From contig CAINOB010000084.1 of the NCBI GenBank assembly GCA_903851365.1, positions 1 through 54,635 on the forward strand: 54,635 nucleotides of DNA, read 5' to 3'. Made by a program: the position numbers and the translations under genes. The notes beneath the pieces were generated by a model. It saw only the letters and a list, made by a program, of their open reading frames with translations, was not told where the DNA came from and ran no database searches. Shown one piece after another: positions 4,189 to 37,801 of this stretch. Within the stretch, counting starts at the first letter, position 1; each line of letters starts with the position of its first letter. Source of the DNA: an uncultured Bacteroidota bacterium. GTDB taxonomy: Bacteria > Bacteroidota > Bacteroidia > Bacteroidales > UBA12481.

Positions 4189-4223
4189 TGTCCTTTTTCG
4201 CCTTTTCGCCAATCCATACTTTG
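4189..4223 (+). promoter_or_regulatory. Phage late promoter, copy A
   Basis: TGTCCTTTTT at 4189-4198 and TACTTTG at 4217-4223. The TA lies exactly 28 nt after the start of TGTCC, as in the three other copies at 26111, 36351 and 37766. TACTTTG resembles the Bacteroidota -7 element (TAnnTTTG). The following ATG is at 4263, a longer leader than for the other copies. Confidence 0.65.
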
Positions 4224-4262
4224 TGGAGTAATGGGAAAATTAACCAAAGCGAAAATTGACAA

Positions 4263-5039
4263 ATGACACAATCCGATATCGATACCATTAAAGCCTGGCT
4301 GATTTCCGGACGGGATTACAACAACGGGGTTGCGATCTATGAAAAATATTCGCGCAACAGTTCGCTTAAACGCATTTTCCCCGGCAAAGAAACCCGGTTC
4401 GCTTTCAAACTCGCATACGAGCTTAAAAAACTCATCCCATCGGATATCAAACCAGAACCGCTAAAATCGGTGGCTCCCAAGCCATCAGGACTCAAACCGG
4501 TGATAACAGGATCGGTATACCTCGATGCGATCAGTAATGATGACCCAAACCTACCGAAGGTCATCCGGCAGATCATCTCGGAATACAGCACCGTTTATAA
4601 CCAGCGGTCCATCGCGCACCATTCTTTGAAGAAAATCGCTCCGGATAACCGCACCGACAATGTTGAATCCCGCAGAATCATTGTCGAACAGATTTCCGAA
4701 CTATCTGACCGGATGGAAGAACTATACCAGGCACATCAAATCTGGCTGAACGATAAAATCCTACCCGAAGAGATCCGGCTGTTTCCTCCGGATGAGCCCA
4801 TCCTTGCCGATGTGGAAAAAGAAACTGCCGGAGAATTAGCCAGGAAACGGTTGAACCTCATGAAGACCCTTAGCAAGGATTATAACTTGCTCAACTTCTG
4901 TTCTATAGCAAAACAACCGGTTATGAATGAAATGCGCGACGGGCCGAAGCGTATAGCTCTGGAGAAAAGGATCCTCACCAAATCGAACAAAATCAAAGAA
5001 CTTACAGCCAAGATAAATGGTCTTAATAAAGTCAACTGA
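4263..5039 (+). CDS. Phage protein of packaging operon, unknown function
   Basis: A 258-residue protein I do not recognise. The N-terminus (about 1-55) is a compact helical region (T-I-K-A-W-L, G-R-D-Y-N-N-G-V-A-I-Y-E-K-Y, L-K-R-I-F-P). A Pro-rich linker follows around residues 60-75, then a long helical, probably coiled-coil region. It is the first gene of the packaging operon after promoter A, and its 3' end overlaps the PLD-like gene by 23 bp. The position upstream of the terminase suggests a role in DNA packaging or early head assembly, but nothing in the sequence proves it. Confidence 0.7.
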   Translation: MTQSDIDTIKAWLISGRDYNNGVAIYEKYSRNSSLKRIFPGKETRFAFKLAYELKKLIPSDIKPEPLKSVAPKPSGLKPVITGSVYLDAISNDDPNLPKVIRQIISEYSTVYNQRSIAHHSLKKIAPDNRTDNVESRRIIVEQISELSDRMEELYQAHQIWLNDKILPEEIRLFPPDEPILADVEKETAGELARKRLNLMKTLSKDYNLLNFCSIAKQPVMNEMRDGPKRIALEKRILTKSNKIKELTAKINGLNKVN

Positions 5040-5616
5040 CATTAAAACTCCCGTTCAGGAGGCCGCAAAGAATCAACAGGTTATGATTCCGCTGGCCATC
5101 ATGGAATCGGATGCTGATCAGAATCCGGATCTGGTGGTATTTGAAACCGGTGCCCTGACAAAGAGCATCGGGTTAATATTACCCGGCCGGCAAAAGCATT
5201 ACTATTCGGATGGAAATTTCAACCTGCTCCGGCTGATATTCCACATCCTCAAACAAACCGGTCCCGCACATATCCTGATGGCCACCTATTCGATCTCGCA
5301 GGACTCGCTCGAGAAGGTCCGGAACCGGATCAACCATGGCGAAATTCTCTCCATCCGGTTCCTGATCGATAACCGGGTAAAAGTCATGAGTCCCCTGCCC
5401 TTCCAAATGCTGAAGGAAGGATTCACCTACCGGTGCATCTCCCTGCATGCTAAAGTGGCTCTGATCTATAACGACGATTGGAAAATCTCAATCGTAACAT
5501 CCCAGAACGCGACCGATAACCCCAAGCTGGAACGCGGGGTGATCTTCACAGATGATCAGATCTTTAACTTCGATAAACAACAAATGGAAAATGCTTTTAA
5601 CCGAGGAACAGATTAG
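5017..5616 (+). CDS. Phospholipase D-like domain phage protein
   Basis: A 199-residue protein whose C-terminal half carries a PLD-type signature. L-H-A-K-V-A-L-I-Y-N-D-D-W is followed by T-S-Q-N-A-T-D-N-P-K-L-E-R-G, i.e. an H-x-K with the downstream Asn/Glu-Arg-Gly features of PLD-superfamily nucleases. The canonical Asp of HKD is replaced by Ile/Tyr around that spacing, and there is only one motif, so an active enzyme would have to be a dimer. A conserved middle (H-I-L-M-A-T-Y-S-I-S) fits the alternating strands of the fold. It lies inside the packaging operon, overlapping both neighbours. A nuclease or DNA-binding role in packaging is possible but is inference. Confidence 0.55.
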   Translation: MVLIKSTDIKTPVQEAAKNQQVMIPLAIMESDADQNPDLVVFETGALTKSIGLILPGRQKHYYSDGNFNLLRLIFHILKQTGPAHILMATYSISQDSLEKVRNRINHGEILSIRFLIDNRVKVMSPLPFQMLKEGFTYRCISLHAKVALIYNDDWKISIVTSQNATDNPKLERGVIFTDDQIFNFDKQQMENAFNRGTD

Positions 5617-5869
5617 CGAAATCGAATCGATGGCGGAGCTCTTTTTCGATATCGCCGATATTGCAGTCAATATCGAAGTCAATCCCATGGATCTCCGGGA
5701 TGAGATAAACTCTGGGCAGGGAGTTGCTTTCGCTGCGTATAACCGGGGCTGGTTCAAAGGCGAAATCCCGCTCCGCAAATCAATCGCCCAGGCGGCAGCC
5801 AATGGCTCCAATCCAGCTCAAAACATGCTTCTTGACCTCCGGACAAAAGCACAAATCTCAAATCTATGA
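5591..5869 (+). CDS. Small phage protein, possible small terminase component
   Basis: A 92-residue helical protein. The ATG at 5591 is preferred over an upstream ATG at 5552 because it gives an overlap typical of this operon. The pattern 'D-I-A-V-N-I-E-V-N-P-M-D-L-R' followed by 'A-A-Y-N-R-G-W' and 'A-Q-A-A-A-N-G-S-N-P-A-Q-N-M-L' is the layout of phage packaging helix-turn-helix proteins, where a DNA-binding helix precedes an 'A-Y-x-x-G' segment and a final helix. It lies two genes upstream of the large terminase and overlaps the following start (ATGA at 5866). It may recognise the packaging site together with the next gene product. Confidence 0.5.
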   Translation: MLLTEEQISEIESMAELFFDIADIAVNIEVNPMDLRDEINSGQGVAFAAYNRGWFKGEIPLRKSIAQAAANGSNPAQNMLLDLRTKAQISNL

Positions 5870-6450
5870 GCAAAGAGTTTCTATCACTCGACAATATCCC
5901 CTGGCAAATCATTAAAAATCATTTGTCAGATCCTGACCATATCCAATTGTCGGAGGAACACCGGAACATGCTCGACCGCGTGTTTTCCATGCAAAGGATC
6001 CTGCAACGATACCCCCAGCCCAGGACTGCCCTGGCATTGCATCAGTCAAAATTTCCTGACATATCCAGGCGAACCGCGTACAACGACCTGAATTACGCCC
6101 GGGAACTGGATAACACCTACCACAGTTTTGACTATGAGTTTTATAACAACTGGCTGATCTCAGATATCTTCGATCAGATACAGGCTGCCAAAGCCAAAGG
6201 AGACATGAAAGCCTGGGCAGCCGGTCATGCCAATCTCAAAAAAGCCATCGGTGAAAGGCCGATGGCAGAAACGGATCCGAAGCTTTTGGAAAAACACACC
6301 TTCCTGATTCAGATCAATAACATGGCCGGCGGAATCCAGATGAACATCGACGAGATGGAGAAACTCCCCGCCAAAATCCGGCAGGAAATTGCCGATGCCG
6401 TGTTCGAAGAAATCACGGATGAACAGGCCGAGCAAATGATCAATTCCTGA
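5866..6450 (+). CDS. Putative terminase small subunit-like protein
   Basis: A 194-residue protein directly upstream of the large terminase, sharing one base with its ATG (tgATGg). Around residues 45-85 the segment with T-A-L-A-L-H-Q-S-K-F-P-D-I-S-R-R-T-A-Y-N-D-L-N-Y-A looks like a DNA-binding helix-turn-helix unit ('S-x-x-T-A-Y-N-D'). The C-terminus is acidic and helical (E-E-I-T-D-E-Q-A-E-Q). Position, size and HTH pattern fit the small terminase subunit that selects phage DNA for packaging. No characterised homologue is recognised with certainty. Confidence 0.55.
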   Translation: MSKEFLSLDNIPWQIIKNHLSDPDHIQLSEEHRNMLDRVFSMQRILQRYPQPRTALALHQSKFPDISRRTAYNDLNYARELDNTYHSFDYEFYNNWLISDIFDQIQAAKAKGDMKAWAAGHANLKKAIGERPMAETDPKLLEKHTFLIQINNMAGGIQMNIDEMEKLPAKIRQEIADAVFEEITDEQAEQMINS

Positions 6451-8144
6451 TGGAGCCCGTAAATCTGAACAGACCACAGTACAACTCGCTGCTTCACGGC
6501 GCAAAATCCCGGGTTGATGTTTGGAGCCGGGGAACCGGAAAATCATACCTGGTTGGATGGGATATTCATACCGTAAACCGCAAAATGCCCGGTGCCCTGA
6601 TCTCAGTCACCGGCCAAACATACGGCCAGCTACTCACCAGGACGCTGCCATCGACGTTCAAGTTCCTGGAAAATCTCGGGTACCTGAAAGACAAAAACTA
6701 TGTGGTCGGTCGCCGGCCGCCACTTTCCTTCCACTCGCCATTGGAAAAGATCATGAAGTTCGATAATGTCATTTCCTTTTCGAACGGGAATGCCATCCTC
6801 ATGCTCTCCCAGGATCGCATAGGATCGGCCAGGGGGCCCAATGTTGATTATGAAATTCTGGACGAAGCCCTGACCATTGATAAGGAACGTTACGATCAGG
6901 AAACTTCGCCCACAAACCGGGGAAACGAAACACTCTGGGGAACTAGATCCCCGGATCCGATTCCATTTCATCATGGATATCACTATGTTTCATCCATGCC
7001 ATATACTCAGACTCAGAAGTGGCTCCTATCATTCGCCAATTATTACCAGGAGGAAACCGGGGTCCAGCTCTTTTCGATCTGGAACCGCCTGGTGAAACTT
7101 CAGATGGAACTGATCCCAGCCTACTATGCCAAGGACTCAAAACTGTACCGGGAAATCTGGAACGAAACCATCCGGCTCCGGAAACAGATCCTGCCGTTCG
7201 TATCCAAGACCGGACTGCTTTTCACACTCGCCAATGCTTTCGATAACATTGATAATGTGGGCATGTCCTATATTGTCAGGGAGTATGAAAAGCAAAACCT
7301 GCTGACCTTCCTGATCGAGATCATGAACCTCATGCTGGATACCGTGGAAGATTGCTACTACCACATTAACGAGGCAAAGCATGTTTATTTCAATGCCACA
7401 AACGATAGTTTTATCCGGGATCTTGCAGAGAACACCAACTTCAATTTTCAGAAACTGGCCACTCATGATTCCCGCTTCGATGCGGATTGCAACCCCAATG
7501 CCCCCCTGGAATTATCCCCGGATTGGGGCTCCAACATCAGCCTCCTGTCAGTCGGCCAGGAAGGCTCGTTTGATTTCGTGATTAAGCAGCCGGCATCGAC
7601 TGACAACTTCATCAATGAGTTCTTTGTCAAGCCTGATCAGTCAAACGATGTAATGATCAATTCGCTTGTAGATCAGTTTACTGATTACTACAAGCATCAT
7701 ATTGACAAGACTATTATATACTTCCGTGACCGGTACGGGGACAGCAAGAACCCCAACGTAAACAAATCAAGCAGTTACAATGAACAGGCAATCGCCAGGC
7801 TCGAGCGTAACCACTGGACTGTGATCCAGGAAGTGCACAAAGGCATGGAGCCGCCGCAGCATGACAAGTATCTGCTATGGGGCAACATCCTAAGAGGAAG
7901 TGATCCTTCCTTCCCTGCCGTCCGGTTCAATGGCAGCAAATGCAAGTACACCCTGATCTCCATGAACAATACCCAGGTGATTCAAAAGGAAGGGAAGTTC
8001 ACCAAGAACAAAGCATCAGAGAGATCCAAAACCATTTTACCTGAAGAGGCCACCCACTTCAGCGATGCGGTGGATAAACTCATCTGGACCAAATACGGTC
8101 ATCTCCTATCGGCCAGTCACTCATTCGTACCGGCACGCACCTGA
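6450..8144 (+). CDS. Phage terminase large subunit
   Basis: A 564-residue packaging motor. ATPase motifs are Walker A S-R-G-T-G-K-S (residues 26-32) and Walker B E-I-L-D-E-A ending at residue 140, with the catalytic Glu in D-E-A. The C-terminal RNase H-like nuclease has L-S-P-D-W-G-S with Asp358, D-R-Y-G-D ending at Asp431, and H-F-S-D-A-V-D with Asp539. Together these make the acidic set that coordinates two metal ions. Family members pump DNA into the procapsid and cut concatemers. It is the last gene of the packaging operon. The portal gene that normally follows is 18 kb further on, at 26441, because cargo has been placed between them. Confidence 0.92.
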   Translation: MEPVNLNRPQYNSLLHGAKSRVDVWSRGTGKSYLVGWDIHTVNRKMPGALISVTGQTYGQLLTRTLPSTFKFLENLGYLKDKNYVVGRRPPLSFHSPLEKIMKFDNVISFSNGNAILMLSQDRIGSARGPNVDYEILDEALTIDKERYDQETSPTNRGNETLWGTRSPDPIPFHHGYHYVSSMPYTQTQKWLLSFANYYQEETGVQLFSIWNRLVKLQMELIPAYYAKDSKLYREIWNETIRLRKQILPFVSKTGLLFTLANAFDNIDNVGMSYIVREYEKQNLLTFLIEIMNLMLDTVEDCYYHINEAKHVYFNATNDSFIRDLAENTNFNFQKLATHDSRFDADCNPNAPLELSPDWGSNISLLSVGQEGSFDFVIKQPASTDNFINEFFVKPDQSNDVMINSLVDQFTDYYKHHIDKTIIYFRDRYGDSKNPNVNKSSSYNEQAIARLERNHWTVIQEVHKGMEPPQHDKYLLWGNILRGSDPSFPAVRFNGSKCKYTLISMNNTQVIQKEGKFTKNKASERSKTILPEEATHFSDAVDKLIWTKYGHLLSASHSFVPART

Positions 8145-9115: not shown

Positions 9116-9958
9116 ATGGCATTGCTAAGAATTTTATGGGATGGTAAACCACAAGTCATTAAAAACGAAGCATTCTGCGAATTGCTAAATAGTGCCTTAC
9201 CTTCTTCAAATCAGTCAATTCAGGAGTTACTCAACTGGATGGATGAACAAATAAGGGTTCAGAATAATGAGGTTACCAGAGAGGCCCTTAGTAACGTTCA
9301 TGGTGATTGGTATGAATGGTTGTTATCGATTACGGCTTGGAACAATTTTGTAACACAACCATCATCCAAATTGGCAATATCACTTCCAAACGTCAGCCAG
9401 TTTGTTGTAGCAAAACTATATACGGAAGAACTATCGAATCTTATTGAAGATCTAAAGCAAAAGGTTCTTGATGCTTCCTCAGTTCAACTGATAACCTCAA
9501 ATCCTGACTACGTAATCATCGATGGTACATTGGCCAGAGAAGTGATTACAGATCTTTCAGAAATTTCCATCGTGGATGTTGGTTCCCTTTCCTTTTTGGA
9601 TAATCTTTATCGCCAGTTCATCGGACGATGCAGTTTCAACCAAATTGTTGGATACATATCAGTTAAAACATCCTTGAGGCCAGACCGAAGATTACAGCTG
9701 GCTCATGAGGGAAGTTTGATGAAAGCCATTTATACTCATCTTCAAACAAGGCAATGGATCATCAACCCGCCGGGTCTCAAATACTATGGAATGTCCACAC
9801 GAGTTGGAGCTTCAGATAGAGAAGCGCTTAAAACGGTTGCAACCCATTCAATAACTACTGTTTATAGTTTACCTCAAGCCGCGGTGGATGAGGTTTATCA
9901 AGTGAATTCGGTTCAGGAAGCTCAGGAAGCTTTTGGTCAGATTTTGAATGCTTTGTAG
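9116..9958 (+). CDS. Type II restriction endonuclease, Cfr10I/Bse634I family
   Basis: A 280-residue protein with the permuted catalytic arrangement of Cfr10I/Bse634I. S-N-P-D gives Asp131, I-S-V-K-T-S-L-R-P-D-R-R gives Lys184 and A-H-E-G-S gives Glu198. The Asp-to-Lys distance of 53 and Lys-to-Glu distance of 14 match that family (PD...K...E instead of PD...ExK). K-T-S-L-R-P-D-R-R is the family's hallmark stretch. Cfr10I and Bse634I cut R^CCGGY, while the fold relatives NgoMIV and SgrAI recognise related CCGG-core sites, so a CCGG-centred target is likely but its exact form is inference. The gene is convergent with the methyltransferase, and their 3' ends overlap by 104 bp. Confidence 0.85.
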   Translation: MALLRILWDGKPQVIKNEAFCELLNSALPSSNQSIQELLNWMDEQIRVQNNEVTREALSNVHGDWYEWLLSITAWNNFVTQPSSKLAISLPNVSQFVVAKLYTEELSNLIEDLKQKVLDASSVQLITSNPDYVIIDGTLAREVITDLSEISIVDVGSLSFLDNLYRQFIGRCSFNQIVGYISVKTSLRPDRRLQLAHEGSLMKAIYTHLQTRQWIINPPGLKYYGMSTRVGASDREALKTVATHSITTVYSLPQAAVDEVYQVNSVQEAQEAFGQILNAL

Positions 9959-25569: not shown

Positions 25570-25624
25570 GGTCGATGTTCAACAATTTACGTTATTTTGA
25601 AACTTGAAAATTTCGCCAGCGACT

Positions 25625-26059: not shown

Positions 26060-26088
26060 AAAACCCCGCTTCTCAAGGCGGTTTTTTT
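26060..26088 (+). terminator. Rho-independent terminator before portal operon
   Basis: AAAACC..CGC and GCG..GTTTT arms around a TTCTCAAG-type loop, followed by T-run. It isolates the structural operon from the cargo. Confidence 0.8.
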
Positions 26089-26110: not shown

Positions 26111-26145
26111 TGTCCTTTTTTATCAGTTACCCCGCCAATATCTTG
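26111..26145 (+). promoter_or_regulatory. Phage late promoter, copy B
   Basis: TGTCCTTTTT at 26111-26120 and TATCTTG at 26139-26145, with TGTCC-to-TA distance 28 nt as in copies A, C and D. The ATG at 26163 is 24 nt after the TA, implying a very short untranslated leader. Confidence 0.7.
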
Positions 26146-26162
26146 GCCTGAAATCAAATGAA

Positions 26163-26441
26163 ATGGCCACAAAAATCAGACGGAACAAGGTGCTGAAATA
26201 CCTCGACATCAAGGAAACACCATCCGGTGAGCAAATCTCCTTTAGCATCGTATTCATTAAAAAGAATGGCGAAAGAGTGTTCCTGCCGAGGGCAGTGGCC
26301 ACCGGCCTTCCTTTTTCATTGAAAACAAACCGGATGCGTGGAGTAGTGCCGATTGACTCCGACGGTGAAAAAACCGGACACGTTTATCCGGTCAACATCG
26401 ACAACATACTGGAATATAATTCGATGGAGGTATTACTGTAA
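26163..26441 (+). CDS. Small phage protein before the portal
   Basis: A 92-residue, beta-rich basic protein (K-Y-L-D-I-K-E-T-P-S-G-E-Q-I-S-F-S-I-V-F; G-E-R-V-F-L-P-R-A). First gene after promoter B; its last base is shared with the portal start (taATGg). No named family recognised. Coupling to the portal suggests a role in head or neck formation or its regulation. Confidence 0.65.
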   Translation: MATKIRRNKVLKYLDIKETPSGEQISFSIVFIKKNGERVFLPRAVATGLPFSLKTNRMRGVVPIDSDGEKTGHVYPVNIDNILEYNSMEVLL

Positions 26442-27781
26442 TGGCGAAAATACTCTGGAATAACGAAGGCACACCCCTGATGGCCTACGGGGAAAAGGCT
26501 TTTATTTCCACCGTCGGATCACTGCCAGTGGTTAAGCCAGCCAAAACCATCGAAGAATTGGACCAGAATGAATCCTTCGATGATTATAAGATAAGCCCCT
26601 GGGGCCCGGCCAACGATTTTCCGGTTACTGCCCTGGACATAATCGGACGAACCGGAGTACTCAATACCGGATTGAAGTTCATCCGGAATTTCACCCTTGG
26701 CCAGGGGATATTCCCTGTCCGGATAATCGGCTACGATGATCAGGGCAATGAAAAAATGGAAATAATCAATGATCCCAAACTCACCCGGTTCCTTGAAGGA
26801 AGACTCGTTCGCCGGTATATGGCCAACGCCCTTCGTGATTACTTTAAACTGGGAATCGCATTTCCCCAACTGATTCTCAATACCGATGGCAGTGAGATTG
26901 TTGGGATCAATACCATCAATGCCCAGCATTGCCGTTTAACGGAAGCAAAAAACGGGATTATTGAAAATTGCATCATCCATGGTGCATGGCCGGATCAACC
27001 GGTGGCAAAGGCTGAAGTCATTCCATTACTCGATACTTATGATCCATTAGCTGACCTGATTAATAAAAAGATAGCCAAGAAGGCAACCGCTAAATCCTAT
27101 ATCTATCCCATCCGGGATGAGTGGGGCAATGAAGACTATTACCCCCTCCCGATATGGTATTCCGCCTATCGCGCCGGCTGGATCGATATCGCGAACCAGG
27201 TACCAGCATTCCTGAAAAAAGCGTACGCCAATCAGATTACCTGGCTCTGGCATGTGAAAATCCCTTATGCCTATTGGGATAAACGGTTCCCTAAGAGCCA
27301 GTATAAAGACGATAAGGTTCGCATGCAACTCATACAGGCTGAGATGGATTCAATCGAACAATCCTTGACCGGCACCGCCAATGCCAATAAAGCATTGTTC
27401 TCACATTATGCGTCAAATTCCCAGGGGAAACCCGAAGAGCAATGGTTCATCGAATCTTTGGATAACAAGTACAAAGAGGGTGATAAACTCATCACCTCGG
27501 CTGCAGCCAACTCGGAGATTCTTTTCGCACTCATGATCAATCCCAACGTGATGGGCGCCGGGATGCCAGGTGGCATCTATGCCGGTAACCAGGGAGGATC
27601 AAATATCCGCGAAGCTTTCCTGGTCAATATTGCCGGCGCGTGGCTCGACCGTCAAAACATTCTGGATCCCATTGAGGCGATGCTTGAGTTCAATGGAGTT
27701 GCCGACGTTCAGCTCCGATTCCGTAATACCATATTAACCACCCTGGATACCGGAGCCGGTACCCAGAAAATGCTCAGCTGA
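26441..27781 (+). CDS. Phage portal protein (putative)
   Basis: A 446-residue protein with a portal-like layout. The N-terminal arm contains P-W-G-P-A-N-D-F-P. D-I-I-G-R-T-G-V-L-N-T-G-L-K-F opens the core. The central region is alpha/beta with D-Y-F-K-L-G-I-A-F-P-Q-L, the 'lead into wing' segment where portals read G-N-A-Y/F. The C-terminal crown carries I-R-E-A-F-L-V-N and L-D-P-I-E-A-M-L. It forms the ring through which DNA enters the capsid and to which the terminase docks. In related Bacteroidota prophages this gene follows the large terminase, whereas here 18 kb of cargo separates them. The call rests on layout and context, not on a signature motif. Confidence 0.65.
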   Translation: MAKILWNNEGTPLMAYGEKAFISTVGSLPVVKPAKTIEELDQNESFDDYKISPWGPANDFPVTALDIIGRTGVLNTGLKFIRNFTLGQGIFPVRIIGYDDQGNEKMEIINDPKLTRFLEGRLVRRYMANALRDYFKLGIAFPQLILNTDGSEIVGINTINAQHCRLTEAKNGIIENCIIHGAWPDQPVAKAEVIPLLDTYDPLADLINKKIAKKATAKSYIYPIRDEWGNEDYYPLPIWYSAYRAGWIDIANQVPAFLKKAYANQITWLWHVKIPYAYWDKRFPKSQYKDDKVRMQLIQAEMDSIEQSLTGTANANKALFSHYASNSQGKPEEQWFIESLDNKYKEGDKLITSAAANSEILFALMINPNVMGAGMPGGIYAGNQGGSNIREAFLVNIAGAWLDRQNILDPIEAMLEFNGVADVQLRFRNTILTTLDTGAGTQKMLS

Positions 27782-27782
27782 T

Positions 27783-28790
27783 ATGTTTTTCAAATCCACA
27801 CTCAACGCCAAGCTCGAGGAAGTCAGGAAATACCTGCCGGTCAGCCTTGCAACCACGTTCTCGAATATTAGTCCATTCATTCAATCGGCAGAGGTCAATT
27901 ATATCCTACCGCTTCTCGGGCAGCAGTTATATGACCTGGTCCAAAAGTTTTATGACTCGCCTACTCCACTACCGGCTGGCATCACCGTAGAATCTTCGCC
28001 TAAATACACCATCCTGATCGAGCATATTCAACGCTCGCTGATCAACCTGACCTATTGGGCATCGTTCGATTTCATGAATATTTTGATGAACGATTCCGGA
28101 TTCCACCGTCAGGAGTCAGATCATGAAAAATCCCTGTTCAAATATCAGGAAGACAGTCTGAAAGCCGGATTCAAAAACAATGGGTTTGATGGCCTGGATA
28201 CGATGCTGGAATTCATTGAGGCCAATATGCCAGCGTTCCCACTGTTTTCGGAGAGTGCAAACTATACCGAGCGCAAAAGCTCCATCATCCCCAATACGGC
28301 TGGGTTTAATAAAATCTTCAACATCAATAACTCCCGGCTGGTTTTCCTCAAAATCAGCCGTTACATTACGCAGGTTGAAGATTTCGAAATTCAGGCTTTG
28401 CTGGGTGCAAACCTTTTCGCAAGAGTGAAAGAGGAAATTGCCAAAACCTTGCCGGATGATAAAATCATCAAGCTGATTCCATACATCCAGAAACCATTGG
28501 TCCATCTCTCGATTGCCCGGGCAGGATTCCATCTGGGGATTAACATCACGGATAAAGGCCTATTTTTCGAATCTCAAAACGCAACCCAGCAAAACTCACA
28601 CGTAACAACCCCTTTATCTGATCAGCAATACTTTGCGCTGGCCCGATCATCGGAAAATGTAGGTTTGGCCTATATGGACAGGCTGACCGGTTTTCTATCT
28701 GCCAACGCTATGGATTACCCGGAATATGTGATCCCCGGTGGATCGCCGTTAATCCGAACCAACACAGGCAAAACAACATTCTGGGTATGA
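27783..28790 (+). CDS. DUF6712-like phage structural protein
   Basis: A 335-residue protein beginning one base after the portal stop. The N-terminal region L-E-E-V-R-K-Y-L-P-V-S-L ... I-Q-S-A-E-V-N-Y-I-L-P-L-L-G-Q-Q-L-Y resembles DUF6712, a family of Bacteroidota phage proteins next to portals. A similar unit recurs in the second half (I-T-Q-V-E-D-F-E-I-Q-A-L-L-G-A-N-L-F), so the protein looks like an internal duplication of one helical domain. The position fits a head-tail connector. Since no other capsid candidate is present between portal and tape measure, a capsid role cannot be excluded, but the helical make-up argues against an HK97 fold. Confidence 0.55.
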   Translation: MFFKSTLNAKLEEVRKYLPVSLATTFSNISPFIQSAEVNYILPLLGQQLYDLVQKFYDSPTPLPAGITVESSPKYTILIEHIQRSLINLTYWASFDFMNILMNDSGFHRQESDHEKSLFKYQEDSLKAGFKNNGFDGLDTMLEFIEANMPAFPLFSESANYTERKSSIIPNTAGFNKIFNINNSRLVFLKISRYITQVEDFEIQALLGANLFARVKEEIAKTLPDDKIIKLIPYIQKPLVHLSIARAGFHLGINITDKGLFFESQNATQQNSHVTTPLSDQQYFALARSSENVGLAYMDRLTGFLSANAMDYPEYVIPGGSPLIRTNTGKTTFWV

Positions 28791-29506
28791 CAACCATCGA
28801 AATACAATACCGGCCCTTTAGGTGGCTGAATTATACCTGCAAGATAAAGACCACCCATCCGGATTCCTGGGAAGAGCTGACTCCCGCTCAGTTTATCTCC
28901 GCAGCTTGCGTGTTCAAGGAAACCATAACGGATGATAAACTGATCGCCTCGATGCTGGGGCTCCGGAAAAGGTTGATCCGGAAACTCTCCCCTTATCAGA
29001 AGTTCAGCCTGATTGAACTCCTGAAATTCCTGGAAACGTACAAGCCCTATTACGAGTTCATCATCCCCCGGATTGCAGGGTTCAAAGCGCCATACCCCCG
29101 GCTGAAAGATGAGACTTTCGGCTGTTTCATATTTGCCGAAACTTACTTTGAACGCTACTCTTCCACCCATGAACCGGAGTACCTATCCAAGTTTATCGCG
29201 TGCTTTTACCGGCCCTCAGCGTTCAAAGAATCCGATATTAATGTCCGGGCGGGTACCATCGCCAAACAACCCTTGCTAACTCAGGAAGCCATATTCATTA
29301 ACTATTTTCTGATCAGGGAGTGGTACACCCAGGAGTACCCTCTGGTATTCAAGCCGGCAGCGAATCAATCCAAAAAGGAAAAATCAACCTGGTTGGACGT
29401 TTACGATGCCGTGGTTGGTGATGATATCGTAAAGCAGGAAGAATATGCCAATCTCCCGATATCAACCGTCCTCCGGTATCTGAACAAACGCATACAAAAA
29501 CACTGA
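28787..29506 (+). CDS. Phage head/tail operon protein, unknown function
   Basis: A 239-residue, mainly helical protein overlapping the previous stop (ATGA). Notable segments are S-W-E-E-L-T-P-A-Q-F-I-S-A-A near residues 28-41, a Phe/Tyr-rich middle and a Lys-rich C-terminus. Its position three genes before the tape measure and its helical nature would suit a tail assembly chaperone, but no sequence signature supports this. I see no slippery-site extension at its end. Confidence 0.55.
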   Translation: MTTIEIQYRPFRWLNYTCKIKTTHPDSWEELTPAQFISAACVFKETITDDKLIASMLGLRKRLIRKLSPYQKFSLIELLKFLETYKPYYEFIIPRIAGFKAPYPRLKDETFGCFIFAETYFERYSSTHEPEYLSKFIACFYRPSAFKESDINVRAGTIAKQPLLTQEAIFINYFLIREWYTQEYPLVFKPAANQSKKEKSTWLDVYDAVVGDDIVKQEEYANLPISTVLRYLNKRIQKH

Positions 29507-29507
29507 C

Positions 29508-30014
29508 ATGAAAGCCAAATTCGCTGAGTTCGTCTCCTATCTTGAAAACCTGGCGACTACTCACTCGCTCATCCGGCACCGTGTTGGCGAAAAGCACTTC
29601 TTTCGTTTCGAACTGGAAGAAATGCTAACCGGTATGAGGTCCGATATCAACTACCCGGCACTTATCCTGGAAGGGTACGATTTCAATTTTATCGATCTGG
29701 ATTCCGATAATGTGCACAAACACCTGAACTGCGGGTTTATGCTGATCGGTAAAATCTCAGACAAAGGCGATTATGATGCCATTCATACCCTTTGGGATCA
29801 TCTGGAAGAGATTGGCGATGAAATTATTATCAGGATACTCAGTGATAAACGGGAAAAGAAAACCGGATGCCTGGCCTATTTTCATGTCCGCAATGTAACC
29901 GGCACGCCGCTGACGGATATCAATCTCATTCATTACGGATTCCGATATGAGTTTCAGTTATCCTGGCCCATCTCAAACGAAATAGACAGGGAGGTATGGG
30001 ACGATGCAGGATAA
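29508..30014 (+). CDS. Phage tail/neck protein, unknown function
   Basis: A 168-residue protein with alternating strands and helices (F-M-L-I-G-K-I-S-D-K-G-D-Y-D-A-I, I-I-I-R-I-L-S-D-K, H-Y-G-F-R-Y-E-F-Q-L-S-W). The closing pattern of an Asn/Thr-rich strand followed by 'Y-E-F-Q-L' resembles tail terminator or tail tube subunits, which end in similar beta hairpins. This is structural guesswork. It overlaps the next gene by 11 bases. Confidence 0.5.
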   Translation: MKAKFAEFVSYLENLATTHSLIRHRVGEKHFFRFELEEMLTGMRSDINYPALILEGYDFNFIDLDSDNVHKHLNCGFMLIGKISDKGDYDAIHTLWDHLEEIGDEIIIRILSDKREKKTGCLAYFHVRNVTGTPLTDINLIHYGFRYEFQLSWPISNEIDREVWDDAG

Positions 30015-30465
30015 CTTGGAGATCGAAGAATACAATAAAGTTGTCATTCAGTGGGGATTCCGGACACGGAGCCTGCTGAAAACCAGCATCGCTTCCCTTT
30101 CGATGAAAGGCAAAGGTGATCTGATGCGCCAGCTTCAGATGAAAACCAAAAAAGATTACGGGGAAATTGACCGGGTCATATTCAACTTCCCCCGGCACGG
30201 CGCTTTTTTTCATAAAGGCGTTGGCCGTGGATACATCATTATATCCGGACGGGTCATTCGCGGGAGGAGAAATCAACCTTCAAAACATGGCAGCAATACC
30301 CTCGAAAACACCATCCAGCATGTGAACACTGAACCCATAAGAAGATTTCCGAAAGCCTGGTTCACCCCGGTTTTCGAACGCGAAATTCCCAGACTGGCAG
30401 ATGTAATCACCCGACTGAAAGCAGATGCGATACTCGATTCAAACACCTTTAAACTCCGCACGTAA
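30004..30465 (+). CDS. Putative neck/tail completion protein
   Basis: A 153-residue basic protein. It has a helical N-terminus and a middle with N-F-P-R-H-G-A-F-F-H-K-G-V-G-R-G, then P-K-A-W-F-T-P-V-F-E-R and a helical C-terminus. The order 'basic loop, then helical end with F-x-P-x-F/I-x-x-x-I-P-x-L-A-D' recalls HK97 gp10-type neck proteins that bind inside the head-tail joint. It lies immediately before the tape measure, with which it shares one base (taATGt). Confidence 0.5.
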   Translation: MQDNLEIEEYNKVVIQWGFRTRSLLKTSIASLSMKGKGDLMRQLQMKTKKDYGEIDRVIFNFPRHGAFFHKGVGRGYIIISGRVIRGRRNQPSKHGSNTLENTIQHVNTEPIRRFPKAWFTPVFEREIPRLADVITRLKADAILDSNTFKLRT

Positions 30466-33400
30466 TGTCACGAGAATACACACGGGAGATTTATCTGTAT
30501 ATCAATGGTAAGCAGATCAATAACGACATCAAAAGCATTCGTGCCGAAATGAACCTGCTGGTTAACCAACAGGCCAGAATGACAATCGGATCACAGGAGT
30601 ATGTGGAAGCAACCAAAAAGATCAAAGCCTTAAAGGCCATACTCGCTGAGCATGCTGCCTCTTTAAAGGAGGTCGATAAATCATTCGGAGGAATGCTGAA
30701 CAAACTTGGTGATGTGACCAACCGGTTCCAAACCGTCCTGATGGCCGGCGCTGCAATGGCAATCGGTCTGGTTACCGGTTTTATGAAAACTGCCGATGCA
30801 GCCAACCTATTTGAAGAACGATTATCCAATCTTTCGGCACTTACCGGATTGAATGGCAGGGAATTACAATGGCTTGGCGAAAAAGCAAAAGAAACCTCCA
30901 TTTCAGTAACAGAATCCGGAGTCCGGATCAAGCAATGCGCAACCGACATTGTCGATGCCTATACCAAAGTTGGATCGCAAAGGCCAGAACTGCTCAAGGA
31001 TAAAGAAGCCCTGGCAGCCGTTACCGAAGCAGCTATTGTTTTATCGGAAGCCGGCAAGATGGAACTGGCACCGGCAACGGCGGCACTGACCACCACAATG
31101 AACCAGTTTAACCTCGAAGCCAGAGATGCTAACCGGATCATAAACAGTATTGCAGCCGGATCCTTGGTAGGTGCCGGGGAAATTCCTTACCTCACGGAAT
31201 GTATTGAGAAAGCAGGTACCACGGCAAACCTGATGGGAATATCGGTAGAACAGATGGTTGGTACCATCGAGGCCGTTGCGCCAAAATTTGCACAGGCTGA
31301 AGTTGCCGGTACCTCTCTGGATCGCGTGCTCCTTAAAATGCGTGAAAAAGGCATCGGTGTAAAAGATGGGGTATTCGATCTGAACCGCGCAGTTGATGAA
31401 CTCCGGATCGAGTTCAACTCCGGACAGTCTGCCGTGGATATATTCGGGGTCCATCAGGCTAAAATGGCTGAAATACTGGTCATGAACCAGGCAGATATGA
31501 ACAAATACTCTGCCGCAGTCACCGATACCTCTATCGCTTTTGAGCAAGCCGGGAAGAACACCAATAACATGGCGGCCAAACTTCAACAGGCCAGGAACAA
31601 GGTTACCCTGATGTATATCGAAATCGGAACCAAACTGGCCCCGGCGGTAATCGTTTCAACGAACGCATTTAACTATTTCCTGAAAGCCATCATGGCATTG
31701 CCGGGGTTTGTCAAAGAAAACCAACAGCTGTTGATTGCGCTGGCCGGAGCGCTCCTCGCCTATAACGGCGTATTAATCAAAAGTATCGGCCTTTCAATCA
31801 TTAATACTGGTGTGCGGATCAAGGATGCTGTTGTGCTGAAAGCTTTGATTATCCAGGAGGAAATCCAGATCGCCATGACAGCGGCGCAGGCAACGCAAAC
31901 CACTGCCTTGACATTCGCGCAAAAAATTGCAGTGGTAACCCAGCTGGCCCTCAATACCGCCATGATGCAAAACCCGGTAGGATGGGCGATTGCCGGGATT
32001 ACTGCCCTGGTCCTGGCATTGAACTATTTCAATAAAAACTCCAAAGAAAATATCGCCCTGGAAGGTGAGAAAAAATCACTCACCCAAGACCTGACCGCGG
32101 CCAATCAGGCATTGAAGGAAACCTATACTGAAATCAGCGGGCAGGTGGGCAAGCTCAATGAACTCAGTGTTCAGGAGAAGATTGATCTTGATGACAAGAT
32201 CACCAAAACGTTGGCCCTGGCAGAAGCCGAATTGGAAGTTTTGCAGGGAAGACGCGGCGATATTAAAGCTTCAAGCACCAAAATCACCGCTTTTCAATTC
32301 GTCACAACGATGTTCAATCCGGATAAACGTCTGGCTAAAGCCCGGGAGAATGCTCTGGAAGCAGTCGCTCCGCAAGATGCCCTGATTGAATTGCAGAAGG
32401 ATCGGATCAAATCCCTCAAAGAACAAAAAACCGAGCTGGATAACCTGATGAACGCCGAGAGCCTGGCCGACCGGATAGGAACCGGTTCGGTATCAGAGAT
32501 GGAAGCCAAGCTTCAAAAATATACCCTTGCACTTAAAGGTGTATTGAAAGGCGGTGCAGACTATATCCGGATACAGCAAAAGATTGTCAAGGTCGAAGCC
32601 GACCTGGCCCGGGAACGGGGAGTCAATGAAGCAGCCGGGGAAAAATTCAATCGCGAAAAGGCCTTGGCCGACCTGGTGAAATTCCATGAGGAAAAAGTCC
32701 TGCTGATCAAGACAGAATACGCCAAAGGCATTGGCGACAAAGAAACTTACAACAACGATCTGGAACAGGAAGATATCCGATTCCAGATGGCATCGGCTGA
32801 AAGGCTGGCAAAAGCCGGTCAGTCCACGGTGGCAGAACAGCAAAAGGTTCAGGATATCCTGATCAAAATGCGGGAGGATTGCGAAAAAGAGGCCGAGGAA
32901 TCTGCTAAAAAGCAGAAGAAATCCATAGAAATGTGGGATGAGGAGTATAAGAAATTCCTGGAAGACACTCAGGATAACCCGGATTTTACAGCCGAACAAA
33001 AGCAAAACGTACAGGATTACATATACTGGTTCAACAACACAGCTGAAGGTCAGCGGGAAATGGCTCAGTTGGAGTTAGATAATGATCTGATCTCCAAAAA
33101 AGCATATTACCGCAAAATAAAGGAACTCGATAAAGATGCTGCCGAAAAGAAACTCGCAAACCTCGAGCAATGGGCAGGAGCAGCCACCAGCCTGGCTGAA
33201 ACAGTCGGCAAGTTTATGGAGGCTCAGAAAAATAAAGAACTTGCTCAAGCCGGAACGGATGACAAAAAGAAAGCAGCCATCGAAAAAAAATATGCCAAAC
33301 GCCAGCAAGATATTGCGGTTGTTCAGGCAGTTATCGAGGGAGCATTGGAAATAGCCAGGATCAACTCAAACTCAGGCGTTAATGCTGATCTGACGCAAAC

Positions 33401-33890
33401 CCTCCGGCTGATCTTAACCGGATTGGCCGTAGCCCGCACCGCCGGTACCATTGCAGTGATCAAATCGCAGCAATTCGCCGAAGGCAGGTACCCCGTCATG
33501 GGTGCCAATGATGGCCAGATCTATCAGGCCTCGCTCCTTGGAAAAGTCCGCACCGGGATCTATAGCAAGCCTACCCTTGGGCTATTCGCAGAAAAAGATC
33601 CTGAAATTGTTATCGATGGACCAACCACCCGGAATATCCGCGCAAACTTCCCGGAGATTCTCGAAACCATTCAATCGGCGAGGGTTACGCAGTATGCAAG
33701 TGGAATGTACCCCGACCTCGGAGGAACCAGCCAGCAGTCGGCCATGCAGATAACTGCACTCCTTCAAGCAAACATGCAGATGATGAGGCAGGTGATCCTT
33801 GCACATGAGAAGCCGGGGACGGTGAGTTTCAAATCCATCAGGGATACACAGGACGATTATGACTTCATTAAATCCAAAACAACGATTTAG
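30465..33890 (+). CDS. Phage tail tape measure protein
   Basis: A 1141-residue protein, the largest in the element. Residues 1-90 form a helical start (I-N-N-D-I-K-S-I-R-A-E-M-N). A TP901-type tape-measure core follows at about 90-400 (M-A-A-K-L-Q-Q-A-R-N-K-V-T-L-M-Y-I-E-I-G-T-K-L-A-P). Next come hydrophobic segments at about 420-530 (L-L-I-A-L-A-G-A-L-L-A-Y-N-G-V; G-W-A-I-A-G-I-T-A-L-V-L-A-L) and then long coiled coils to about 960. It sets tail length and is ejected into the cell envelope. About 1100 residues at 1.5 angstrom per residue would mean a tail near 150-170 nm, a siphovirus-like size (inference). A fragment of a further frame (33872-34003) follows directly. Confidence 0.92.
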   Translation: MSREYTREIYLYINGKQINNDIKSIRAEMNLLVNQQARMTIGSQEYVEATKKIKALKAILAEHAASLKEVDKSFGGMLNKLGDVTNRFQTVLMAGAAMAIGLVTGFMKTADAANLFEERLSNLSALTGLNGRELQWLGEKAKETSISVTESGVRIKQCATDIVDAYTKVGSQRPELLKDKEALAAVTEAAIVLSEAGKMELAPATAALTTTMNQFNLEARDANRIINSIAAGSLVGAGEIPYLTECIEKAGTTANLMGISVEQMVGTIEAVAPKFAQAEVAGTSLDRVLLKMREKGIGVKDGVFDLNRAVDELRIEFNSGQSAVDIFGVHQAKMAEILVMNQADMNKYSAAVTDTSIAFEQAGKNTNNMAAKLQQARNKVTLMYIEIGTKLAPAVIVSTNAFNYFLKAIMALPGFVKENQQLLIALAGALLAYNGVLIKSIGLSIINTGVRIKDAVVLKALIIQEEIQIAMTAAQATQTTALTFAQKIAVVTQLALNTAMMQNPVGWAIAGITALVLALNYFNKNSKENIALEGEKKSLTQDLTAANQALKETYTEISGQVGKLNELSVQEKIDLDDKITKTLALAEAELEVLQGRRGDIKASSTKITAFQFVTTMFNPDKRLAKARENALEAVAPQDALIELQKDRIKSLKEQKTELDNLMNAESLADRIGTGSVSEMEAKLQKYTLALKGVLKGGADYIRIQQKIVKVEADLARERGVNEAAGEKFNREKALADLVKFHEEKVLLIKTEYAKGIGDKETYNNDLEQEDIRFQMASAERLAKAGQSTVAEQQKVQDILIKMREDCEKEAEESAKKQKKSIEMWDEEYKKFLEDTQDNPDFTAEQKQNVQDYIYWFNNTAEGQREMAQLELDNDLISKKAYYRKIKELDKDAAEKKLANLEQWAGAATSLAETVGKFMEAQKNKELAQAGTDDKKKAAIEKKYAKRQQDIAVVQAVIEGALEIARINSNSGVNADLTQTLRLILTGLAVARTAGTIAVIKSQQFAEGRYPVMGANDGQIYQASLLGKVRTGIYSKPTLGLFAEKDPEIVIDGPTTRNIRANFPEILETIQSARVTQYASGMYPDLGGTSQQSAMQITALLQANMQMMRQVILAHEKPGTVSFKSIRDTQDDYDFIKSKTTI

Positions 33891-36350: not shown

Positions 36351-36385
36351 TGTCCTTTTTCATGAGTTCCCCGGCTCCTACTTTC
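36351..36385 (+). promoter_or_regulatory. Phage late promoter, copy C
   Basis: TGTCCTTTTT at 36351-36360 and TACTTTC at 36379-36385, TGTCC-to-TA distance 28 nt. The ATG of the lysis operon is 26 nt after the TA. Confidence 0.68.
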
Positions 36386-36404
36386 AGCCAATAAACCGGA
36401 ACTC

Positions 36405-36707
36405 ATGATTGACGCTGGACAATTACACTTGATCGAACTCCTCCTTTCTATAGCCGGATTCCTCATTCTGTTCCTGCTTGGAATAATTGGTTTCTGGATT
36501 CAAAAGTGGATCCGGGCAACAGATGCCCTCACCGAGGTGATCCAAAAACTCGAAGTGCATTTCGCATCCACGCAAACAACGGTTGAGGATATCAAGAAGC
36601 AATGCGATTCCCGCTGTGCCTTGTATGACAAACGGTTAAACGGCCATTCCGAGGTTATCCATGCGCACTCAACAGACATTGCGGTTCTTAAACAACACCA
36701 CAAATAG
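36405..36707 (+). CDS. Membrane-anchored phage lysis protein (holin/spanin-like)
   Basis: A 100-residue protein with one N-terminal transmembrane helix (about residues 8-31: L-L-L-S-I-A-G-F-L-I-L-F-L-L-G-I-I-G). The charged helical tail (about 33-100) has a C-D-S-R-C pair near residue 65. It directly precedes the endolysin. One transmembrane segment plus a coiled-coil tail resembles DUF7365/XhlA-type lysis accessory proteins, or an i-spanin, more than a classical holin. The lysis role comes mainly from context. Confidence 0.6.
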   Translation: MIDAGQLHLIELLLSIAGFLILFLLGIIGFWIQKWIRATDALTEVIQKLEVHFASTQTTVEDIKKQCDSRCALYDKRLNGHSEVIHAHSTDIAVLKQHHK

Positions 36708-36709
36708 TC

Positions 36710-37135
36710 ATGAAAGTAAGTAAAGACTTCTCCCTGGGGGAATTCGTACCGCCCAGCATTTATGAGCATTTCGTCGACAAATCGATCTGGTTCATCGATC
36801 CGAAAATTGTGCAAATGGCCCAGTTTATCCGGGATCGCTTTGGAAAGCCAATCACAATCAATAACTACCTCACAGGAGGATCCTACCAATACTCCGCATT
36901 CCGGGACAGCGCCTGCACTATTGGAGCCACCAACTCCCAGCACCGCCATGGCCGGGCCATCGACTTTCGCATCCAGGGAATGTCACCGTTGGAGATCCGG
37001 GCAGACATCATCAAGAATTTTGACCTGTACCGTCCATCCGGCCTGACCACCATTGAAGGGGGAACCCCAACCTGGACGCATATCGACTGCCGGTTCACCA
37101 ATATGGATTCAATATTAATTGTACCATTTAAATAA
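36710..37135 (+). CDS. M15 family peptidase (endolysin)
   Basis: A 141-residue peptidase of the M15 (D-Ala-D-Ala carboxypeptidase / L-Ala-D-Glu endopeptidase) group. S-Q-H-R-H-G-R-A-I-D supplies zinc ligands His78 and Asp85, and T-H-I-D-C-R supplies His124. A nearby Glu/Asp (D126) completes the set. It would cut peptidoglycan stem peptides at the end of the lytic cycle. No signal peptide, so release depends on the neighbouring membrane protein. It starts 2 bp after that gene. Confidence 0.85.
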   Translation: MKVSKDFSLGEFVPPSIYEHFVDKSIWFIDPKIVQMAQFIRDRFGKPITINNYLTGGSYQYSAFRDSACTIGATNSQHRHGRAIDFRIQGMSPLEIRADIIKNFDLYRPSGLTTIEGGTPTWTHIDCRFTNMDSILIVPFK

Positions 37136-37144
37136 TTCAACATC

Positions 37145-37495
37145 ATGAAAGGCACTTTAAACATCAAAATCATTCTGGCATTCGTGCTGGACTTTGTAGC
37201 CGATGCTCAGAAAGCAATGGCAGACGGAAAGTTTCAAATCACCGATTCATTCCTATTCATCGATAACGTGATCCAGGTTCCAAAAGCCATCGGAGCAGCA
37301 AAACAGTTTTATGCTGAATTCGAGGATATGGATGCAACAGAGGAAGCGGATATCCTGGCCTACGTTTCAGAAAGGCTTCAGGTCAATAGCGTTAAGGCTA
37401 AAGCGATTGTCCTGCAATCATTTAAAACCGCTATCACCATATCAGAATTGGTAGGTGATGGAATTGAATTGGCTGCAATCATTAAAGCAGCTTAA
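37145..37495 (+). CDS. Helical phage protein of lysis operon
   Basis: A 116-residue all-helical protein (I-I-L-A-F-V-L-D-F-V-A-D-A-Q-K-A; E-E-A-D-I-L-A-Y-V-S-E-R-L; E-L-V-G-D-G-I-E-L-A-A-I-I). Similar small proteins follow the endolysin in other Bacteroidota prophages, but I know no function. It could be a virion-associated or lysis-control protein. It is followed 2 bp later by another small gene. Confidence 0.6.
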   Translation: MKGTLNIKIILAFVLDFVADAQKAMADGKFQITDSFLFIDNVIQVPKAIGAAKQFYAEFEDMDATEEADILAYVSERLQVNSVKAKAIVLQSFKTAITISELVGDGIELAAIIKAA

Positions 37496-37497
37496 CC

Positions 37498-37686
37498 ATG
37501 TGGAAGCTGCTGAAATACTTACCGATTTTCCTGAAGTACCTCATTAATGTTGGTCCGCTGATTTACGAGACCGCCAAATGGGGTTTTAAAATCGTTCGGG
37601 AATTCAAAACCAAAAAGGAAGTAAAACCCCCGATAGAACTGCGACCCGAGGATCCGGTAACCAAGCCGGACCTTGACCCTGGCTAA
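37498..37686 (+). CDS. Small phage protein with hydrophobic N-terminus
   Basis: A 62-residue protein with an amphipathic or membrane-dipping helix (about residues 4-28: L-K-Y-L-P-I-F-L-K-Y-L-I-N-V-G-P-L-I-Y) and a basic then Pro-rich tail. It could be the holin-like partner of the M15 endolysin or a lysis accessory. It ends the lysis operon and is followed by a palindrome and a terminator. Confidence 0.5.
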   Translation: MWKLLKYLPIFLKYLINVGPLIYETAKWGFKIVREFKTKKEVKPPIELRPEDPVTKPDLDPG

Positions 37687-37690
37687 GTAA

Positions 37691-37708
37691 AGACGGATAT
37701 ATCCGTCT
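37691..37708. repeat. 18-bp perfect palindrome
   Basis: AGACGGATATATCCGTCT is self-complementary over 18 bp and is followed by CTACTC. Palindromes of the form GTAGAGACG...CGTCTCTAC are dispersed in many Bacteroidota genomes; this looks like a partial member. Confidence 0.6.
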
Positions 37709-37724
37709 CTACTCAAGGTTACCC

Positions 37725-37762
37725 AAGAGCCGTGACCAACCAAAACGGGTTACGGCCCTTTT
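37725..37762 (+). terminator. Rho-independent terminator of lysis operon
   Basis: Arms AGAGCCGTGACC and GGTTACGGCCCT (one mismatch, one G-T pair) with a loop of about 10 nt, then TTTT. It abuts late promoter D. Confidence 0.75.
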
Positions 37763-37765
37763 AAC

Positions 37766-37801
37766 TGTCCTTTTATCCTGATCGCTTCTGACCTAGAATT
37801 G
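37766..37801 (+). promoter_or_regulatory. Phage late promoter, copy D
   Basis: TGTCCTTTT at 37766-37774 and TAGAATTG at 37794-37801, TGTCC-to-TA distance 28 nt. The TAnnTTG shape is kept although the spacer differs. The ATG at 37819 is 25 nt after the TA. Confidence 0.65.

Follow-up and report, generated by a model that had tools for sequence, protein, structure and literature searches.

Identically spaced sites precede the late operons of a Bacteroidota prophage

The window analyzed here, which spans the whole of contig C84 (54,635 bases) in an assembly of 5.23 Mb from an uncultured Bacteroidota bacterium, carries a prophage whose packaging, portal-tail, lysis and tail-tip operons all lie on the forward strand and whose right end is marked by an integrase gene adjoining tRNA-Lys (Table 1). 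Head genes were not found in the window, and the contig therefore seems to begin inside the prophage. Each of the four operons is preceded by a short site that is almost certainly a late promoter. An exact search (0 mismatches) for TGTCCTTTT returned four copies, all on the + strand and starting at positions 4189, 26111, 36351 and 37766, with no further exact copy on either strand of the window. All four are followed by N19-TA, which places TA 28 nucleotides (nt) past the first T, in slots reading TACTTTGT, TATCTTGG, TACTTTCA and TAGAATTG (promoters 1-4 in order). The downstream ATG in every case belongs to the gene that opens a late operon (starts at 4263, 26163, 36405 and 37819), 52-74 nt from the box and 46, 24, 26 and 25 nt from TA at promoters 1-4, respectively. 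A first-pass annotation of this DNA had claimed four copies upstream of these operons, an invariant 28-nt distance, dissimilar spacers and, in three of the four cases, an ATG 24-26 nt after TA, all of which we recovered; of the TAnnTTTG-like box that it described, TA was present at all four sites and the exact TAnnTTTG at none. In full, the conserved unit reads TGTCCTTT-N20-TAnnTT(T)(G).

Under a first-order model, 0.34 copies of TGTCCTTTT and 0.02 copies of TGTCCTTTT-N19-TA are expected per strand, and the probability of at least four of the latter in the window is about 7e-9, an optimistic figure because the pattern was picked after sight. An unguided count of 8-mers 35-80 nt 5' of the + strand open reading frames (ORFs) of the window also placed TGTCCTTT in the top rank, tied with the overlapping GTCCTTTT, with all four of its occurrences in that interval. 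Looser patterns were at chance level in the window, both for TGTCCTTTT with one mismatch (23 observed, 21.7 expected) and for TGTCCTTTT-N19-TA with two (20 observed, 25.5 expected), and the signal therefore resides in the exact copies only. A terminator scan called a hairpin immediately 5' of promoter 2 (Table 1) and none immediately 5' of promoters 1, 3 and 4; a stem with a 12-nt loop at about 4152-4181, 5' of promoter 1, was seen by eye and resembles the promoter 2 hairpin, and it was not called by the scan.

The box and its spacing are conserved upstream of late genes in related phages

Portal homologues were gathered from genomes and from IMG/VR (in one set, the best 80 of 136), the closest being in metagenome-assembled genomes labelled Bacteroidetes and Porphyromonadaceae (98 and 92% identity). 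Among 101 loci with at least 100 nt 5' of the 92-amino-acid (aa) gene that opens the portal-tail operon, duplicates included, TGTCC occurred within 250 nt in 80 and TGTCC-N23-TA in 69. When only distinct upstream regions of up to 160 nt were counted (79, including the window), 60 contained TGTCC, 58 TGTCCTTT and 52 TGTCCTTT-N20-TA; loci without the site mostly had a coding end immediately 5' of the gene, as judged by eye from printed sequences. Distinct regions upstream of other genes carried TGTCCTTT and the full pattern in 32 and 22 of 45 cases for the tape measure gene, in five of six cases each for the spanin gene and four of seven each for the tail-tip gene (both including the window), and in four of 14 each for the 258-aa gene that opens the packaging operon; upstream of the endonuclease gene within the packaging operon, neither was found (0/8). 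Averaged over pairs of 23 distinct portal sites, identity was 0.989 in the box, a value that is partly built in since the sites were selected by the box, 0.732 in the -7 slot, 0.362 in the spacer and 0.365 and 0.379 in the flanks. A 3.2-kb contig labelled Candidatus Falkowbacteria, which may be mis-binned, carries a portal relative with 61% identity.

Across 15 IMG/VR records, out of 24 sequences searched, TGTCCTTT-N20-TANNTT occurred 55 times, on a single strand per record, and its control not once; the nine whole genomes in the same 24 gave 65 matches and 49 for the control. One record (G016) had no match to this pattern, its box copies being followed by TT in place of TA. We then assembled 30 phage and prophage records, consisting of the window, 12 of the 15 IMG/VR records, three chromosomal contigs and 14 records picked for having the site, in which TGTCCTTT-N20-TA was found 119 times against 14 for the reversed control (14 of the 30 records being site-picked). 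Sixty-six of the 119 sites lie 46-80 nt 5' of an ORF start. The spacing was rigid on the portal strand, with 110 sites at a spacer of 20, two at 21 and 0-3 at each other value from 10 to 31, and the opposite strand of the 30 records had no site at a spacer of 20. Conversely, among the 8-mers found 20 nt 5' of TAnnTTTG on the portal strand, TGTCCTTT occurred 72 times and the next-best word three times. The bare TGTCCTTT was biased as well (155 on the late strand, 22 on the other); the reversed word is also strand-biased (33 and 90), and the bare word is therefore weaker evidence than the word with its spacing.

Placement followed gene class. Within 160 nt upstream, TGTCCTTT was present at 10 of 19 genes for the 92-aa protein, 15 of 29 tape measure genes, 12 of 25 tail-tip genes and 6 of 15 and 4 of 16 head protease genes, and it was absent from integrase (0/30), primase (0/15 and 0/14) and LuxR-type (0/14) genes. 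The records thus share a site 5' of several late operons and not of early genes, as activator-dependent late promoters would.

The pattern also leads back to the phages. Scans of IMG/VR with the real and the reversed pattern returned at least 120 rows each, with 80 loci listed for each, and are unusable as counts; among the matches listed, two matches per stretch occurred at eight of the 80 real loci and at none of the 80 control loci. From these lists we chose by hand 26 long contigs for the real pattern, six of them already known to have two matches, and 20 for the control. At least two sites were present in 19 of the 26 motif-picked records (13 of 20 without the six previously seen) and in one of the 20 control-pattern records, and 18 of these 19 multi-site records had all sites on a single strand, the other (G051) having one per strand. 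The portal family of the window was found in all 14 motif-picked records examined whole, all of which had at least two sites, and the DNA pattern therefore points back to the same phage lineage; over the 30 records the family was present in every one (15 of them portal-chosen).

In L139 (G023), the proteins encoded at 4501-5499 and 2756-4288 seem to resemble the reverse transcriptase and variable targets of a diversity-generating retroelement; families f52 and f46 are represented in six and five, respectively, of 16 records.

The site is concentrated among phage genes and differs from host promoters

Related prophages of the source genome lie on broken contigs (C7, C19, C31, C72, C74, C124 and C129), with terminase relatives on C84, C31, C7 and C74 plus a fragment on C129, and portals on C84, C124 and C28 plus a distant one on C26. 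Sites stand 5' of orthologues of the window operons, namely packaging (C7 and C31), portal (C124) and tail tip (C41, where the first gene is 81% identical and the site upstream is conserved), and 5' of the head protease gene on C19 and C72; the orthologues of the 258-aa gene on C7 and C31 and in the IMG/VR locus L001 are also preceded by the site. At three sites, C19:13267 (L007 2268), C72:10468 (L011 1969) and L504 16282 (MT836146.1), an inverted repeat with a T-run behind it covers the -7 slot, so that promoter and terminator-like hairpin overlap.

The first-pass annotation had named an equal density of the pattern at random chromosomal positions as grounds for refutation. The strict form TGTCCTTT-N20-TANNTT escapes this, with 12 matches in the source genome against 6 for the reversed control and all 12 among phage genes. 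The looser TGTCCTTTT-N19-TA that the annotation had put forward did not exceed its control as a raw count, with 13 matches against 16, but 11 of the 13 were among phage genes and two (C59 and C86) inside host ORFs. All 12 strict sites are TAnnTT without the full -7 box, TGTCCTTT-N20-TAnnTTTG being absent from the source genome. In 118 genomes of the phylum, the latter pattern occurred 9 times against 17 for the reversed control. The site is thus without excess in host chromosomes and is not a host element.

The consensus of host promoters read by sigma-ABfr consists of TAnnTTTG at -7 and, around -33, TTTG, separated by a spacer of variable length (PMC7366714). In the late sites, a -7-like slot lies where it would be expected and is often near TAnnTTTG: in 109 sites of relatives preselected for TAnnT, T stood at the sixth base in all 109 and at the seventh in 83, and G at the eighth in 92. 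They differ in having no -33 TTTG, an invariant 20-nt spacer where sigma-ABfr promoters vary, TGTCC added immediately upstream, and late phage genes only as targets. G followed TTT in 3 of the 109 sites and in none of the four in the window, and the host TTTG is therefore absent from the site, contrary to the earlier suggestion that TTTT serves as the -33 box. Nor is the family limited to the four copies first described or private to this prophage; it has many more members and is common to a large phage lineage. The search of related prophages that the annotation had called for did find the pattern, with a rigid spacer before late genes (the 30 records), and its proposal of late promoters whose extra upstream element suggests a phage activator is backed by conservation, late-gene placement and the lack of a host excess.

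Related sites in cultured phages

Three cultured phages carry versions of the box. The portal of the window is homologous to that of Leef_1 (Polaribacter, Helgolandviridae; 30% identity over 89%, E = 6e-38), which has six copies of TGTCCTTT, all on the + strand and 40-70 nt 5' of annotated starts. These include the starts of gp05, upstream of the portal gene, of gp13, upstream of the tape measure gene, and of gp41, the head protease gene. Ingeline_1 (Cellulophaga, Duneviridae) likewise carries the box 5' of late genes, with seven copies on the late strand and a single copy on the opposite one; TA occupies the 28-nt slot in five of the seven, and the remaining two late-strand copies lie within an early gene and at the end of the gene for f36, a protein family described below. 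In laban6-1 (Flavobacterium, Duneviridae), the single late-strand TGTCCTTT is not 5' of a late gene. Its late strand instead carries five copies of TGTCACAA, all 5' of late genes (tape measure, portal operon, gp034, head protease and holin), with slots TACTTTCG, AAACTTTG, AATCTTTG, TAAACTTG and GAATTTTG at 28 nt; the opposite strand has no TGTCACAA, and in the 8-mer count of this phage TGTCACAA came top, tied with the overlapping ATGTCACA. IMG/VR yielded one further laban-like f36, 57% identical and the nearest relative of the laban6-1 protein, in L508, which has three copies of TGTCACAC, all 5' of ORFs, with slots TAAGTTTG, CATTTTCG and CATTTTTA. In laban-type phages, the box is thus TGTCACA instead.

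A candidate activator encoded next to the head genes

Protein families were clustered over the records from mechanically called ORFs with simple cut-offs. The families present in most of the 30 records were structural, packaging and integrase genes plus one other, f36, which was found in 25. The five records without it (G017, G022, G026, G031 and the window) have no capsid gene in the stretch, and four of them also lack a terminase gene. The gene order is f36, f33a, the box in some phages, head protease and capsid, and the f36 copies of the source genome (C74, C72, C19 and C7) each adjoin head genes. The C7 copy (C7:53584-54201; L216 1501-1884, L217 1501-1677) shows two profile matches in one 261-aa frame and looks as if it carried an insertion.

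f36 is a basic protein (median isoelectric point, pI, 9.27, compared with 5.67 for the portal and 5.22 for the capsid), mostly of 155-210 aa. A helical segment at its C terminus is conserved, and the C-terminal part of the alignment shows an almost invariant K followed four residues later by an invariant R. Its members fall into two groups (17 and 8 records), the second being the diverged f123, which profile comparison joined (probability 94.1, E = 1.3e-7). Structure predictions of fair and good confidence (predicted local distance difference test scores of 82.8 and 92.5) gave short strands, a long helix and two more C-terminal helices. Three members had no match of note in Pfam or PHROG, and the best match of the profile to PDB sequences (E = 0.072) was taken as chance. 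BFVD contained one significant match, a 157-aa Leef_1 protein (E = 1.5e-5), which we take to be gp39 from its length and annotation; its gene immediately precedes those for gp40 and the head protease, gp41. A profile including gp39 then found laban6-1 gp042 (E = 2.9e-10) and Ingeline_1 gp41 (E = 1.2e-4), and the box is altered in the phages with diverged f36.

The gene is not itself under the box: TGTCCTTT was absent within 200 nt upstream in all 25 records. The upstream regions contained TGTCC-N23-TA in one (G016), TAnnTTTG in 13 and TTTG-N18-22-TAnnTTTG in four, the TAnnTTTG figures being without control. With no TGTCCTTT and TAnnTTTG in 13, f36 is therefore probably read by the host polymerase before the late genes.

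A proposed phage-specific late-gene switch and its alternatives

Our reading is that a temperate siphophage uses these sites as late promoters at which the host RNA polymerase would still read a TAnnTTTG-like -7 box, the host -33 TTTG having given way to TGTCCTTT at a rigid distance. The missing -33 box suggests dependence on an activator, and we think it very likely that this factor is made by the phage. Produced earlier from ordinary promoters, it would bind TGTCCTTT and bring or hold the polymerase, and once present would open the head, packaging, portal-tail, lysis and tail-tip operons together. The most likely candidate is f36, encoded just before the head protease gene, and on balance we lean slightly towards it as the factor in question. 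That f36 represents a new activator family, possibly with a new fold, which redirects the primary sigma holoenzyme of Bacteroidota to phage late promoters by putting its own box in place of -33 recognition and co-evolves with that box (TGTCCTTT in most phages, TGTCACA in the laban type), is a tentative extension to which we give a little less than an even chance.

Several observations weigh against this reading. Among the 119 sites, 28 fall inside mechanically called ORFs of at least 80 aa and 32 have no start within 150 nt. The -7 slots of Leef_1 are degenerate (TA in two of six), and the box change of laban-type phages comes from two records, with TA in the slot in two of five sites in laban6-1 and one of three in L508. 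As to f36, two other conserved structural families are basic too (pI 8.75 and 9.97). Neither f36 model had a PDB fold match at E <= 0.001 (best E 2.2 and 2.3), and DNA binding is therefore not supported by the fold. The match in Ingeline_1 is weak, and the first f36 profile matched only 7 of the 26 motif-picked records, with no match in 11 of the 14 examined whole. The window, which seems to start within the prophage, does not contain the gene, and since it always adjoins head genes, its product could be a structural or assembly protein. Promoter activity, activator dependence and the role of f36 are all things that we infer.

If the promoters are as proposed, the factor could be another phage protein. 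It is rather unlikely that clustering missed such a factor, for example a sigma-like protein that has diverged or a small protein that binds DNA; small regulators diverge fast, which fits such an omission, as do the mechanically called ORFs and simple cut-offs of the clustering, but the families present in most of the 30 records are structural, packaging and integrase genes plus f36. The LuxR/GerE-type regulator of the early region (phrog_10300) is an unlikely activator, although it has a GerE domain, is present in 15 of the 30 records, is annotated in all three cultured phages and is not preceded by the box (0/14). It is absent, even by its helix-turn-helix alone, from the other 15 records, all of which bear sites and several of which are partial, and there is no such gene in G023, G015, G009, G034, G035, G041, G046, G038 or G048 despite their integrase, capsid and terminase genes. 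Moreover, LuxR-type proteins usually bind palindromes, and TGTCCTTT is not one.

Readings without a phage activator fit the sites less well. A factor of the host, either the sigma-ABfr holoenzyme or a regulator, might use TGTCCTTT in place of the usual -33 element, with repression in the lysogen achieved otherwise. This reading gains from the resemblance of the -7 slot to TAnnTTTG and from the roughly normal distance of the box TTT from TA; we regard it as quite improbable, considering the rarity of TTTG at the slot (G in 3/109), the 118 genomes with no excess (9 versus 17), the change of the box to TGTCACA in laban-type phages and a rigid spacing unlike the variable host spacer (PMC7366714). 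A non-promoter phage element lying near operon starts, such as a repressor operator or a packaging or replication signal, is highly improbable: promoter function is predicted from sequence, yet the box keeps a fixed distance to a -7-like slot, on one strand, before late operons and often immediately after a T-run. Chance, or an artefact of one duplicated segment, has a negligible probability; loose patterns are at chance in the window, but the footprint already refutes this idea, the exact unit being common to different flanks, spacers, genes and phages.

The phage-activated late promoters that we favor have their nearest working analogue in the middle promoters of T4, which retain the -10 element but have a MotA box instead of the -35 element, and at which MotA/AsiA appropriate sigma (PMC6755090). 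The late sites share this architecture, with a box standing for the -35-type element, a host -10-type element kept and a fixed distance between them; the box as an activator site is our reading of it. They differ in phylum, sigma factor and box, and in serving late rather than middle genes. No MotA-like activator was recognized either, f36 having no PDB fold match at the threshold above (MotA itself was not used as a query), and membership of the T4 class fails on this point. Promoters of the T4 class also involve a co-activator that remodels region 4 of sigma. The regulators Mu C and P2 Ogr and those of the ArpU/RinA types are small proteins made before the late genes that act on several late promoters with a common site. 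The proposed system would resemble these in having a small pre-late regulator and several late promoters with one site; the sequence and position of the site differ, and neither Pfam nor PHROG gave a convincing match for the f36 members tried.

Literature searches limited to open-licence papers, several of them to the best-ranked matches, gave no account of these promoters, and as far as they showed, late-gene activation in Bacteroidota phages is undescribed. The promoter form with the extra TGTCC element, shared by many phages of a phylum prominent in the gut and the sea, is very probably a late-gene switch. Its rigid code would allow late operons to be mapped in unannotated phages and points to one protein family, and the phage-host pairs of Leef_1, Ingeline_1 and laban6-1 make direct testing possible. 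Should f36 prove to be the activator, the system would reveal the way in which a phage diverts the unusual sigma-ABfr polymerase and would supply Bacteroidota genetics with an orthogonal promoter-activator pair.

Other genes and features of the window

Table 1. Putative late promoters, operons and selected genes of the window
Feature	Coordinates	Strand	Description
Putative late promoter 1	4189..4224	+	TGTCCTTT 4189-4196, 20-nt spacer, slot TACTTTGT 4217-4224; 5' of packaging operon
Packaging operon	4263..8144	+	First gene 258 aa
Endonuclease in packaging operon	5017-5616	+	
Terminase small, likely	5866-6450	+	Name inferred, without family match
Terminase large, likely	6450-8144	+	SRGTGKS Walker-like motif only; name inferred, without family match
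Terminator-like hairpin and T-run	26066..26088	+	Terminator scan; immediately 5' of promoter 2
Putative late promoter 2	26111..26146	+	TGTCCTTT, N20, slot TATCTTGG 26139-26146; 5' of portal-tail operon
Portal-tail operon	26163..33890	+	First gene 92 aa
Portal	26441-27781	+	Homologous to annotated Leef_1 portal
DUF6712 gene	27783-28790	+	DUF6712 match
Tape measure	30465-33890	+	Tape-measure PHROG
Putative late promoter 3	36351..36386	+	TGTCCTTT, N20, slot TACTTTCA 36379-36386; 5' of lysis operon
Lysis operon	36405..37686	+	Four genes including two small ones
Spanin-like gene	36405-36707	+	Spanin-like PHROG
Endolysin	36710-37135	+	Endolysin PHROG
Putative late promoter 4	37766..37801	+	TGTCCTTT, N20, slot TAGAATTG 37794-37801; 5' of tail-tip operon
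Tail-tip/fibre operon	37819..46237	+	Name from place, without functional family match; first-gene homologues in related phages
Integrase	46234..47550	-	Right end of prophage
tRNA-Lys	47517-47590		Adjoins integrase

Two other proteins of the window were tried as regulators and rejected. The zinc-ribbon protein at 25604-26029 (ribbon recognized by eye), encoded immediately 5' of promoter 2, had matches in 3 of 133 sequences including the window, and the 258-aa protein (f1/f24) had TGTCCTTT upstream of its gene in 7 of 29 family members.

Elsewhere in the window, a Cfr10I/Bse634I-type restriction endonuclease gene (9116-9958) and a DNA methyltransferase gene on the opposite strand (9855-11165) probably form a type II restriction-modification pair of the prophage. 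A PD-(D/E)XK nuclease (PDDEXK_13, E = 1.6e-82) is encoded at 1161-2279, beside a gene at 2319-4094 with a ParB-like match. Genes of the f7 family (14571-15500, 20230-20907, 20921-21907, 22544-23521 and 34997-36118) lie mostly between the packaging and portal operons, and the first of them matches Fib_succ_major. Two closely similar 96-aa ORFs, at 16057-16347 and 18194-18484, about 2.1 kb apart, represent a local duplication.

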